Assembly: GCA_031258155.1 (NCBI GenBank) | Contig: JAIRNH010000050.1 | Location: 1 to 52,653, forward strand | Direction of reading: 5' to 3' | Length of the DNA stretch: 52,653 nucleotides | From: Helicobacteraceae bacterium | GTDB lineage: Bacteria > Campylobacterota > Campylobacteria > Campylobacterales > SZUA-545 | In this document: piece by piece, positions 15,017 through 18,898 of the stretch | How positions within the stretch are numbered: the first letter of the stretch is position 1 | Layout: each line of letters begins with the position of its first letter | Position numbers and translations under genes: made by a program | Notes under the pieces: generated by a model | Database searches by the model: none | What the model was told of the DNA's origin: nothing | Seen by the model: the letters and a program-made list of their open reading frames with translations, nothing else

Positions 15017-15035
15017 AGCAATGATTATCATCTGT
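15017..15035. promoter_or_regulatory. Fur-box-like operator upstream of the ferrosome-like operon
   Basis: The core ATGATTATCAT (15021-15031) is a perfect 5-1-5 palindrome equal to the centre of the 19-bp Fur consensus; 12 of 19 positions of the consensus match overall. It lies 80 bases before the first start codon of the operon and 66 bases from the pyrC start. A TATACT at 15075-15080 may be the -10 element. Iron-dependent repression of the operon is the simplest reading. Confidence 0.55.
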
Positions 15036-15114
15036 TAAACTCGCGGTTTAACAGCCGACTAATCTTTAAGCGGCTATACTTCGGGCGTTAGATGATTTTG
15101 ATAACGGAGGATGG

Positions 15115-15408
15115 ATGAGCGTAATCGAGATCGAGCGATTAAAAGAGATACTGCCGCGTCTTAGCGTCGCGCATCACATTCCCGGACGCGCGCGGCTGAA
15201 ACTAAGCGGCAAAGCGCCGTCGTGGGCTTTGGAAAGCTCGATCGACGGGTATTTGAAGTCTATCAAAGGCATTGTCGGCGTAAACGTCAATCCGTTTAGC
15301 GCGTCGGCGGTGATTACCTACGATCAAAACGAGTTGTCGCCCGCGCTTTTCGAGGCGTTGTCTAAAGGCGATTACGAACCGCTGTTAGAGCAGGCAAGGA
15401 GTTTATAA
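15115..15408 (+). CDS. HMA-like small protein, first gene of a ferrosome-like operon
   Basis: The 97-residue protein has the fold pattern of heavy-metal-associated domains of the HMA2 kind: HHIPGRARLKLSG at residues 20-32, a helix, then VVGVNVNP-like strand text and SASAVITYD. It contains no cysteine, so it cannot bind metal through the classic CxxC. Proteins of this type accompany P1B-6 ATPases in ferrosome (fez) clusters. A GGAGG ribosome site is at 15106-15110; an earlier ATG at 15111 is in another frame. Its stop overlaps the next start (TAATG). Confidence 0.75.
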   Translation: MSVIEIERLKEILPRLSVAHHIPGRARLKLSGKAPSWALESSIDGYLKSIKGIVGVNVNPFSASAVITYDQNELSPALFEALSKGDYEPLLEQARSL

Positions 15409-15614
15409 TGTTTCAGTTTGTTTTAGGCGCGGCTGCCGCCGCCGTCGTGATTGGCGCGGCGAACAGCGTCGGTTTCAAACGGGCGATCAATAGAGGTCGC
15501 CGCAAGTTCAAAGAGAAGATCGACTACGCGCGCGAATACGTCTGCGCGATCGACGAGTGCGCCAAAGAGCGCGTAAATAAGAACGCCAAAAAGAGAACGA
15601 GCGGTGAAAAATAG
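15408..15614 (+). CDS. Small membrane protein of the ferrosome-like operon
   Basis: The 68-residue product has an N-terminal Ala/Val-rich helix (residues 2-22) followed by a strongly basic amphipathic stretch (FKRAINRGRRKFKEKI) and a charged tail with two cysteines (VCAIDEC). It resembles the tiny DUF6110/YtxH-like proteins that occur beside P1B-6 ATPases. The start codon overlaps the previous stop, and its end overlaps the next gene by 11 bases, so it is translationally coupled. A structural role on a membrane-bound iron granule is inference from context. Confidence 0.65.
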   Translation: MFQFVLGAAAAAVVIGAANSVGFKRAINRGRRKFKEKIDYAREYVCAIDECAKERVNKNAKKRTSGEK

Positions 15615-15855
15615 CGGCGTTTTAGCGGGCGCGGCGCTTACGCACGCGCTTCTGTCGATCCGCGCTCGCAAAAAGGGCGTCGCTCCCAAAGCCATATACG
15701 CGGCTCAGGGCGCGATCGCCGTTCTTTGCGCCGCGGGGGCGCTGGAGGAGTTTAGCGCGAAAAGACCGCTAAGAGCGATCGCGATCGCGGCGCTTGGCGG
15801 CGCGGCTGTCGCGGCGTTAAATAAAATGGAGGATATAGATGGAAAACGAGAATGA
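15604..15855 (+). CDS. Small hydrophobic protein of the ferrosome-like operon
   Basis: The 83-residue product starts at GTG and contains three short Ala/Gly-rich hydrophobic segments (about residues 5-20, 30-47, 55-73), separated by basic turns. I recognise no domain. It overlaps its neighbours by 11 and 17 bases, the tight packing seen through the whole operon. A DUF5132-like or other fez accessory membrane protein is the most likely class. Confidence 0.6.
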   Translation: MKNSGVLAGAALTHALLSIRARKKGVAPKAIYAAQGAIAVLCAAGALEEFSAKRPLRAIAIAALGGAAVAALNKMEDIDGKRE

Positions 15856-16123
15856 CAAGAACGAGACGAATACCGCCTCCGCTTTTTTATCGGACATAAC
15901 CAAAGCGATCTTTGGCGGATCGTCCAAGGAGCAGTTTATAAAGGGCGCGATAATCGGCGGCTTGGCGACCTATCTTTTGACGAATAAAGCCGCGCAGGAG
16001 ACGCTGTTTAAGGCGGCGCTTCGCTTTGGCGCGGCGAGCGCGCAGGCTTTCGGCGAAATAAAGGATCGTTTCGACGACATGAAAGCCGAAGTCGAGGCGG
16101 AGTTAGCCAAAGAGGATAAATGA
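15839..16123 (+). CDS. YtxH-like small protein of the ferrosome-like operon
   Basis: The 94-residue protein has a polar N-terminus, one Gly/Ala-rich membrane helix (FIKGAIIGGLATYLLTNKAA, residues 33-52) and an acidic, helix-forming tail (EIKDRFDDMKAEVEAELAKE). This is the layout of YtxH/gas-vesicle-like proteins. It overlaps the ATPase start by four bases. A start at 15839 is preferred because the next Met is inside the C-terminal half. Confidence 0.65.
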   Translation: MENENDKNETNTASAFLSDITKAIFGGSSKEQFIKGAIIGGLATYLLTNKAAQETLFKAALRFGAASAQAFGEIKDRFDDMKAEVEAELAKEDK

Positions 16124-18012
16124 GCCTTATCGCGAGCGAGGGCAAAGGCGCGATTAAACGCGCCGCCCTCTCGCTTATCCTTACCCCCTTTTTGCCAAAA
16201 CCGCTTAAATTCGCGGTAACGTTAGCGGCTTCGTTTGGAGCGATCAAGCGCGGCGTAAAGGCGATCCCGAAAGAGGGGATTTCGGGCGAAACTATGGAGG
16301 CGGCGGCGATTGTTATCTCGCTCTTGCGCGGCAACTACGTTTCGGCGAATACGACCAATCTGCTTATAGCGATCTCGCAGGCGGTAGAGAACGCGATCGT
16401 GCGCCGCAGCGACGATCTGCTGCTGTCGCTTAGCGCCCCTTCGAGCGGGCTTGTCTGGGTTAAACGCGGCGGCGAGGAGATCAGAATAAACGCCGACGAC
16501 GCGCGAATCGGCGATATTGTCGTAGCCTACGCGGGCGATACGATCGAGGCGGACGGGGTAGTTTTGAGCGGAACGGCGGCGATAAACGAGGCGGCTATGA
16601 CGGGCGAGTCGCTCGCCGTAAAAAAAGAGCGCGGATCGCGGGTGTTAAGCGGTTCGATCGTGGAGGAGGGGCGCGTGGAGATATACGCCGAAGCCGTCGG
16701 AAGCGCCCGCGCGACGGCGAGAATAGCCCGCGTCGTCGCCGATTCGCTACGCTCGCGCTCGCAGTCGCAATATCGCGCCAACAGGCTCGCCGATCGGCTT
16801 ATCCCTTTTTCGCTTGGACTAACGGGCGCGACCTATCTGCTTACGCGCGATATTAACCGCGTCGAGGCGCTGTTGCAAACCGACTACTCGTGCGCTTTGC
16901 GCCTAACCGTCCCCGTTGCGTTCAAAGCGGCGATGTATCGCGCGGGCAAAGCGGGGCTGCTTACCAAATCCGCCGAGGCGCTTGAGAAATTAGCGAGCGC
17001 GACGACCTTTATATTTGACAAGACAGGCACGATCACAAACGGCGAGTTAGAGGTCGTGGAGATTTTGTCGCTAAACGAGTCGTGGAGCAAAGAGCGGATA
17101 CTCGCGCTCGCCGCGTCGATCGAGGAGCATTATTTTCACCCGATCGCGCAGGCGATTGTCGAGGCGGCTAGAAAAGATCGCAGCATTCGGCACTTTCAGC
17201 ACACCGCCGTCGAGTTTATCGCGGCGCACGGCGTTTTCGCGTTTGTGGAGGGCAAAAAGGTGGCGATCGGCTCTAGGCACTATCTTGAGGAGGACGAACA
17301 GATCGATTTTTCCTCGTTCAAGGAGCGCGACGCAAGGGGGCAAAAATCCAATCTCACGCCGTTATATATCGGTTTTGACGGGGCGTTGCTAGGCGTGGTT
17401 TGGCTTAAAGACGAGCTGAGAAAAGAGAGCAAAGAGGCGCTTTTAGCGTTAAGAAAGCTAGGCGTAACAAAGTGCGTAATGCTTACGGGCGACTCCAAAG
17501 CCAAGGCGCTGGCGCTCGCCAAAGAGCTAGGTTTCGACGATTGCCGCTACGAGCTGCAACCCGACGAAAAAGCCGCGATCGCCAAAGAGTTGCGCGCGAG
17601 CGGCGATATATGCGCCTTTGTGGGCGACGGAATCAACGACGCTCCCGCGCTGTTAGCCGCCGACGTGGGCATAGCGATGCAAAAGGGCGCGGACATCGCT
17701 AAAGTCAGCGCGGATATTACGCTACTCAAAGACGATATATATCTGCTCGCGGAGGCTAAATCGATCGCGGATCAGACGATTTCGCGCGTTAATACGGGAT
17801 CGCGCTCTATGATCGCGGTAAATACGCTTATACTTCTTCTTGCCGCGTTTGGAGCGTTAGCGCCGACTACAACAGGCTTTTTACATAACGGCTCCACAAT
17901 TGTTACGCTTGCTCTTTCGGCGCTCAAGGGCTTTAAGTCGCCTACCGCGCCAAAAAACCGAACGAATCTAGTCCGTTCAAAAACAAAACCGCGCTCCCTT
18001 CGCCGCCGGTAG
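16120..18012 (+). CDS. P1B-type metal ATPase, P1B-6/FezB-like
   Basis: The protein has 630 residues with all catalytic ATPase motifs: TGES at 161-164, DKTGT at 300-304 (phosphorylated D300), the P1B-specific HP at 340-341, TGDS at 456-459 and GDGINDAP at 502-509. The membrane metal site normally reads CPC/SPC; here it is S-C-A (257-259, in TDYSCALRLTVP), so the invariant proline is missing. N-terminal metal domains are absent, apparently supplied by the separate HMA-like gene. The set (HMA-like + tiny membrane proteins + this ATPase, behind a Fur box) matches ferrosome clusters, where the ATPase FezB loads iron into membrane-bound granules. Iron as substrate is inferred. It ends four bases before the first 125-bp repeat. 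Confidence 0.82.
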   Translation: MSLIASEGKGAIKRAALSLILTPFLPKPLKFAVTLAASFGAIKRGVKAIPKEGISGETMEAAAIVISLLRGNYVSANTTNLLIAISQAVENAIVRRSDDLLLSLSAPSSGLVWVKRGGEEIRINADDARIGDIVVAYAGDTIEADGVVLSGTAAINEAAMTGESLAVKKERGSRVLSGSIVEEGRVEIYAEAVGSARATARIARVVADSLRSRSQSQYRANRLADRLIPFSLGLTGATYLLTRDINRVEALLQTDYSCALRLTVPVAFKAAMYRAGKAGLLTKSAEALEKLASATTFIFDKTGTITNGELEVVEILSLNESWSKERILALAASIEEHYFHPIAQAIVEAARKDRSIRHFQHTAVEFIAAHGVFAFVEGKKVAIGSRHYLEEDEQIDFSSFKERDARGQKSNLTPLYIGFDGALLGVVWLKDELRKESKEALLALRKLGVTKCVMLTGDSKAKALALAKELGFDDCRYELQPDEKAAIAKELRASGDICAFVGDGINDAPALLAADVGIAMQKGADIAKVSADITLLKDDIYLLAEAKSIADQTISRVNTGSRSMIAVNTLILLLAAFGALAPTTTGFLHNGSTIVTLALSALKGFKSPTAPKNRTNLVRSKTKPRSLRRR

Positions 18013-18015
18013 GTC

Positions 18016-18140
18016 GCGGTCTTTAGCTCGTTCAACCTAATTCGTTTTATCCATTCAAGCGGCTCGATTTGGCGCGCCGATAGCGGTTCGCGTACCCACC
18101 GCGCCCTTTTTGCGCTAACGCGCCGACAATCGCCTTCGCC
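18016..18140. repeat. 125-bp direct repeat, left copy
   Basis: This segment recurs at 18774-18898 with one mismatch (C at 18105, T at 18863). The offset is 758 bases and the two copies bracket the truncated peptidase E. Both copies are open on the reverse strand and would encode the same 41 residues (including REPLSARQIEPLEWIKR), but with different flanks and no ribosome site. It may be a dispersed repeat family of this genome. Confidence 0.9.
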
Positions 18141-18282: not shown

Positions 18283-18717
18283 TTGGTTAAGATATTTGCG
18301 AAAAAGATTGATAATGGCAAAATTATATTGCATAATACGTTTTATGCGACCTTCTTATTGCAAGAGCTAAAACATTCCGGCGCCGATAAACTTATTATTG
18401 AACACATAAAAAAAGGAAAAATTTATATATCGACGTCGGCTGGTTCGATAATTGTTTCAAAAAACATAGAATATATTAAGTATATGGATAGCCCCGCCGC
18501 CGCCCCAGATTTAGACAATGATTTTTCGGCTCTTGGGATTATCGACTTTTATATTGTTCCGCATTGCTCAAATTTTCCGTTTAAGAAATCCGCCGAGAAA
18601 ATAATTGCGGAATATTCAAAAAAACTTGATTTGCGCCCGATACATAATAAGCAGGCTATTATTGTAGAAGACGCTCAAGCGGAAACGCTCGAAATAAAAA
18701 GCAAAAGCAAAAAATAA
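18283..18717 (+). pseudogene. N-terminally truncated peptidase E-like (S51) gene
   Basis: The open frame encodes about 144 residues from a TTG. It aligns by eye with the C-terminal two thirds of dipeptidase E: NTFYATFLLQELKHSGADK, then the nucleophile elbow ISTSAGSIIVS (Ser52), YIKYMDSPAAAPDL, FSALGIIDFY, VPHCSNFPF and a C-terminal helix. Normal S51 proteins have about 200-230 residues; the first strand-helix units are missing, and the usual GGG/GGN-T-F loop is degraded to LHNTF. The frame stays open upstream to the left repeat, but that text does not resemble the family. Base composition is clearly more AT-rich than the surrounding genes. I think it is a decayed, horizontally acquired gene. 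Confidence 0.55.
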
Positions 18718-18773: not shown

Positions 18774-18898
18774 GCGGTCTTTAGCTCGTTCAACCTAATT
18801 CGTTTTATCCATTCAAGCGGCTCGATTTGGCGCGCCGATAGCGGTTCGCGTACCCACCGCGCTCTTTTTGCGCTAACGCGCCGACAATCGCCTTCGCC
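18774..18898. repeat. 125-bp direct repeat, right copy
   Basis: Right copy of the repeat at 18016-18140. Left of it the sequence (18721-18773) also resembles the left flank of copy one only loosely, so the repeat border is sharp at 18774. No terminal inverted repeats or target duplications are visible that would mark it as an insertion sequence. Confidence 0.9.

Follow-up and report, generated by a model that had tools for sequence, protein, structure and literature searches.

This locus raises the question of whether five overlapping genes in a Campylobacterota genome constitute a ferrosome (fez) gene cluster, as was proposed in an earlier note made from the letters alone. In our opinion they very probably do, and the operon would then make ferrosomes, although the formation of granules is something that we infer by analogy. 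By the same analogy, the small membrane proteins may shape or coat a membrane compartment, into which FezB would move Fe(II) out of the cytosol. The iron would be kept there as an electron-dense granule and drawn on once iron becomes scarce, under some iron-responsive control, possibly by Fur.

The window, that is, the whole stretch of 52,653 nucleotides that was analysed, is contig C50 of a 1.94-Mb genome in 71 contigs, which is 96.8% complete and probably a metagenome assembly. Its assignment to Campylobacterota agrees with the ATPase sequences, since those of relatives from the same order group with Arcobacter and Sulfurospirillum. A flanking gene encodes a dihydroorotase whose best solved relative is 3pnu, which we take to be a structure from Campylobacter jejuni.

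The operon and its ATPase

Five co-directional open reading frames occupy positions 15115-18012 of the + strand, each of them overlapping its successor (Table 1), just as the earlier note had described. The block is kept together in six relatives of the same genus or family, which makes seven genomes with that of the window, and pN/pS measured against three congeners is 0.20-0.48 for every frame, indicating purifying selection on all five. Given this conservation and these ratios, the set of frames is not due to chance. The gene products also correspond to what had been read from the sequence. ORF1 is indeed an HMA-like protein devoid of cysteine, and its HMA_2 match exceeds the Pfam cut-off. 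ORF2, ORF3 and ORF4, described as three tiny membrane proteins, all carry glycine/alanine-rich hydrophobic stretches, ORF4 being just mildly hydrophobic; these three frames overlap one another and FezB, and are encoded together with it. ORF5 is a P1B-type ATPase with S-C-A in its membrane motif, where DYSCA replaces the usual CPC-type motif.

Table 1. Features of the operon and its upstream region (window positions)
Feature	Position	Strand	Evidence
Fur-box-like palindrome ATGATTATCAT, upstream of operon	15021..15031		single match in window, 0.02 expected
TATACT, possible -10 element	15075..15080	+	alignment of promoters (window, L205, L210)
ORF1, free HMA_2 protein, HHIPGR motif, 97 aa, no cysteine	15115..15408	+	Pfam HMA_2 38.1 bits (cut-off 30); hhalign 99.4%
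ORF2, 68 aa, single N-terminal hydrophobic helix; FezA-like by position	15408..15614	+	hhalign 91.9%
ORF3, small hydrophobic protein, 83 aa, GTG start	15604..15855	+	hhalign 89.2%
ORF4, YtxH/DUF5132-like small protein, 94 aa	15839..16123	+	hhalign 99.6%; YtxH E 0.0068 (below cut-off)
ORF5, FezB-like P1B-6 ATPase, 630 aa, without N-terminal HMA domain	16120..18012	+	TIGR01525 432 bits; SCA clade SH-aLRT 98
S-C-A membrane metal-site motif, ORF5 residues 257-259	16888..16896	+	alignment and motif census

A 125-bp direct repeat (99% identical, 18016-18140 and 18774-18898) begins four bases past the stop codon of the ATPase gene, and its two copies flank a 144-aa ORF (18283-18717). The core of this repeat has no match in the other fetched loci outside this stretch.

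The ATPase was expected in the P1B-6 clade, whose members Table 4 of PMC7558416 gives as Fe(II) transporters, and this is where it falls. A tree of 68 P1B ATPases places the 36 with the SCA motif, that of the window included, on one side of a branch with an SH-aLRT of 98, apart from exporters with CPC/SPC-type motifs. Outside this clade lie also the three further P1B ATPases that the genome encodes, which have CPC-type motifs. Neither a CPC/CPH/SPC-type motif nor a grouping with the P1B-1 to P1B-4 exporters was found for ORF5 by motif or in this tree. Its SCA motif and, towards the C-terminus, its HN..TI residues agree with the FezB clade. One half of the clade consists of Bacillota, Methanobrevibacter and Desulfovibrionaceae, and the other of Pseudomonadota and Campylobacterota, with the window among them. 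Ferrosomes have been demonstrated in the Desulfovibrionaceae and Clostridioides lineages; the ATPase is matched in 123 of 199 Desulfovibrionaceae genomes, and six genomes (4.2-4.8 Mb) that share a family with Clostridioides mangenotii, and that we take to be the C. difficile group by an assignment at family level, also sit inside the clade.

ORF5 is 45-51% identical to relatives of about 700 aa across the order, and it is shorter than they are. FezB measures 609-638 aa in the genus of the window and in one further genome (G007), while every one of the 132 remaining genomes with a match in the phylum sample has an open frame of at least 688 aa. What the 630-aa protein of the window lacks is the N-terminal HMA_2 domain, which is present in nearly all relatives; we know of no report that this domain is required. 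The truncated form occurs in two genera. Judging from these proteins, the lineage of the window is slightly derived, with FezB having lost its N-terminal HMA_2 domain and ORF1, the free-standing HMA_2 protein, still in place. The idea that ORF1 is itself the split-off N-terminal domain was rejected, since the free HMA_2 proteins of other clusters are its better match (99.4% versus 97.9%) and relatives carry both. As a separate observation, FezB and the cluster of L059 (Gammaproteobacteria bacterium isolate BB4) fall among those of Campylobacterota, which points to either gene transfer or mis-binning.

Small proteins and upstream region

With hhalign, profiles for the lineage of the window were set against those of the proteins at the same positions in clusters of Campylobacterales, alphaproteobacteria and gammaproteobacteria. 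The four small proteins match those of the fez-like clusters of Arcobacter, Sulfurospirillum and Azospirillum in identical order, with same-position values of 89.2-99.6% (Table 1), whereas column-shuffle maxima, the control for this comparison, were 0.6-5.8% for ORF2-ORF4. Hence the small genes do have relatives in fez-like clusters. The further expectation, that at least one of them would hit a fez-associated profile, holds for ORF1, the HMA_2-type protein of the cluster; it holds poorly for ORF4, which resembles YtxH/DUF5132 just weakly. ORF2 calls for caution. Its counterparts in other clusters reach 75% with the DUF6110-type FezA group, while ORF2 itself gives a weak link of 11.6% when compared with DUF6110 directly, so it has no direct support as a clear DUF6110 protein. 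Since it reaches 88.7% with the ORF4-type profile as well, its assignment is made partly by position.

We agree in part with the earlier note regarding the Fur-like palindrome upstream of the operon. It is indeed unique: in 52.6 kb, ATGATNATCAT is matched by ATGATTATCAT alone. The complete 19-bp Fur consensus, however, finds no site with 3 or fewer mismatches, and the flanks of ATGATTATCAT do not fit it. The best 19-bp match in the promoter is another site, with 12/19 (p 0.29), and we have thus dropped the Fur box as firm evidence. At roughly the equivalent position L205 carries GATAATGATAAT, and it is the only congener that reaches 14/19 (p 0.017); in the relatives L206, L209, L211 and L212 the palindrome is absent. 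The possible -10 element, TATACT, was not reported by a consensus promoter scan. The genome of the window encodes three Fur-family proteins. Taken as it is, the upstream sequence suggests that Fur may control the operon.

Genes related to iron also adjoin the clusters of relatives: a Fur-family gene on the upstream side in G402, FeoA and a Fur-family gene in L063, and FeoA with siderophore receptors in Cereibacter. Downstream of FezB and FezC in G402 (L207/L199) lie genes that, by eye, resemble those for a DUF4198-type and an FMN-binding protein.

Distribution in the phylum and relation to ferritin

The cluster is not rare, nor is it special to the genome of the window. At a threshold of E <= 1e-90, which counts the ATPase and not whole clusters, 135 of the 397 genomes sampled from the phylum give a match. 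Within the genus it is patchy, given that neither a FezB-like protein (E <= 1e-90) nor an HMA_2 protein was matched in G349, a congener that is 98% complete. With about a third of the sampled genomes carrying the ATPase, ferrosomes have probably been overlooked as an iron store in Campylobacterota, and the question is directly testable, as this phylum has both culturable and host-associated members.

Some of these genes reside on plasmids. In Arcobacter strains from chicken meat the ATPase is found on 133-kb plasmids, L054 (CP129951.1) and H2 (CP134847.1), the whole fez-like cluster having been seen in L054. The clusters of Azospirillum and Cereibacter are likewise plasmid-borne, and it seems from these locations that fez-like clusters may be mobile.

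Regarding other iron stores, the sole Ferritin-family match in the 96.8% complete genome of the window is a rubrerythrin-like protein; ferritin, Dps and bacterioferritin were thus not detected there by the Ferritin-family search. This search was run in 50 genomes, where scores of more than 120 bits were taken to mean classical ferritin and scores of about 80-105 mostly Dps, and the 41 of them with a fez status from the phylum ATPase search were used for the association. Classical ferritin is present in 1 of 21 genomes with the ATPase versus 9 of 20 without it (Fisher p 0.004, kinship ignored). If the five genomes that were chosen for having the ATPase are removed, the counts become 0 of 16 versus 9 of 20 (p 0.002, kinship again ignored), and with one vote per genus the association has a p of 0.055. 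The same pattern is visible within genus g3, where ferritin is missing from three genomes that have the ATPase and present in two that do not. Several genomes have neither, and two (G210 and G405) have both. The ATPase and classical ferritin rarely co-occur in this set, which we treat as a lead only, since the sample is small and the pattern was noticed in the data that were also used for the test.

It is tempting to go further and to speculate that ferrosomes replaced ferritin as the main iron store of Campylobacterota, and that the genus of the window, with Dps and bacterioferritin undetected, has no other known store than a minimal ferrosome made from five genes, among them a truncated FezB. 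We put this forward tentatively and would not be surprised to see it fail. If ferrosomes do take the place of ferritin, then many Campylobacterota have an iron store that has been missed.

Rival readings and known systems

One reason for doubt lies in what the locus lacks. A search for the FezC-like protein, a DUF4405-like cytochrome, gave no match in the genome of the window, but it did detect the protein in G008, G235, G194 and G402, and, unlinked to the cluster, in G117, G400 and G007. In Arcobacter, Sulfurospirillum and G402 it lies inside the cluster. Of the FezC-like proteins, 5 of 5 match DUF4405, weakly. To our knowledge FezC is accessory, and there is no report that C. difficile requires it. 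It is known as a heme-binding ferrosome protein (PMC11334425), and in the lineage of the window it is either absent or encoded elsewhere.

Together with the loss of the N-terminal HMA domain of FezB, the missing FezC means that the function may have shifted, and this is an argument for considering metal efflux at the plasma membrane, in which the P1B-6 ATPase would export Fe(II) or another metal, with the small proteins as accessory subunits and with no compartment. P1B ATPases are mostly efflux pumps. Nevertheless, we consider it unlikely: none of the small membrane proteins is missing from any of seven genomes, they are under purifying selection, they match the sets found beside FezB-type ATPases elsewhere, and the metal-site and C-terminal residues of ORF5 agree with the FezB clade. 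The same two losses, with G349 lacking such an ATPase, might instead be taken as signs of a degenerate fez cluster that has lost the making of ferrosomes. This is very improbable in our opinion, given that all frames are open and overlapping, that their pN/pS values indicate constraint, and that the truncated FezB recurs in two genera. The reading of the operon as a fez cluster, to which we return, is supported by the position of the ATPase in the P1B-6 clade, the HMA_2 match, and the homology of the small proteins in their order.

How the operon relates to known fez systems depends on the system. In C. difficile, according to PMC12574912, ferrosomes depend on FezA and FezB, both of which are under Fur repression. 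The likeness consists of an ATPase of the same P1B-6 clade, immediately preceded by a gene for a small membrane protein rich in glycine, but in Clostridioides-type loci it is a DUF6110-type protein that adjoins the ATPase, whereas the window has four small genes, a shorter ATPase and an ORF2 that is weakly DUF6110-like. The fezABC genes of Desulfovibrio magneticus were compared at family level, through Desulfovibrionaceae sequences; the ATPase clade is shared, but the Desulfovibrionaceae ATPases sit in the half of it opposite to that of the window. Rhodopseudomonas palustris CGA009 reportedly makes ferrosomes from six fez genes, RPA2333-2338 (PMC12016538), and is likened here by this reported description and not by sequence.

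The plasmid cluster of Azospirillum, annotated as HMA2, cation transporter, two hypothetical proteins, YtxH and P-type ATPase, shares with the window the order HMA_2, small protein, small protein, YtxH-like protein, ATPase. It differs in an extra leading gene, whose product joins HMA_2 and a FezC-like domain in one protein, and in a FezB that keeps its N-terminal HMA_2. Arcobacter-type clusters likewise have a FezB with the N-terminal domain, and they add a FezC-like gene and a rubrerythrin/DUF2202-like gene, the latter being absent from the cluster of the window. Yet the clusters of Arcobacter, Sulfurospirillum and other Campylobacterales belong to the same phylum as the window, follow the same gene order, and encode a FezB that is 45-51% identical to its own.
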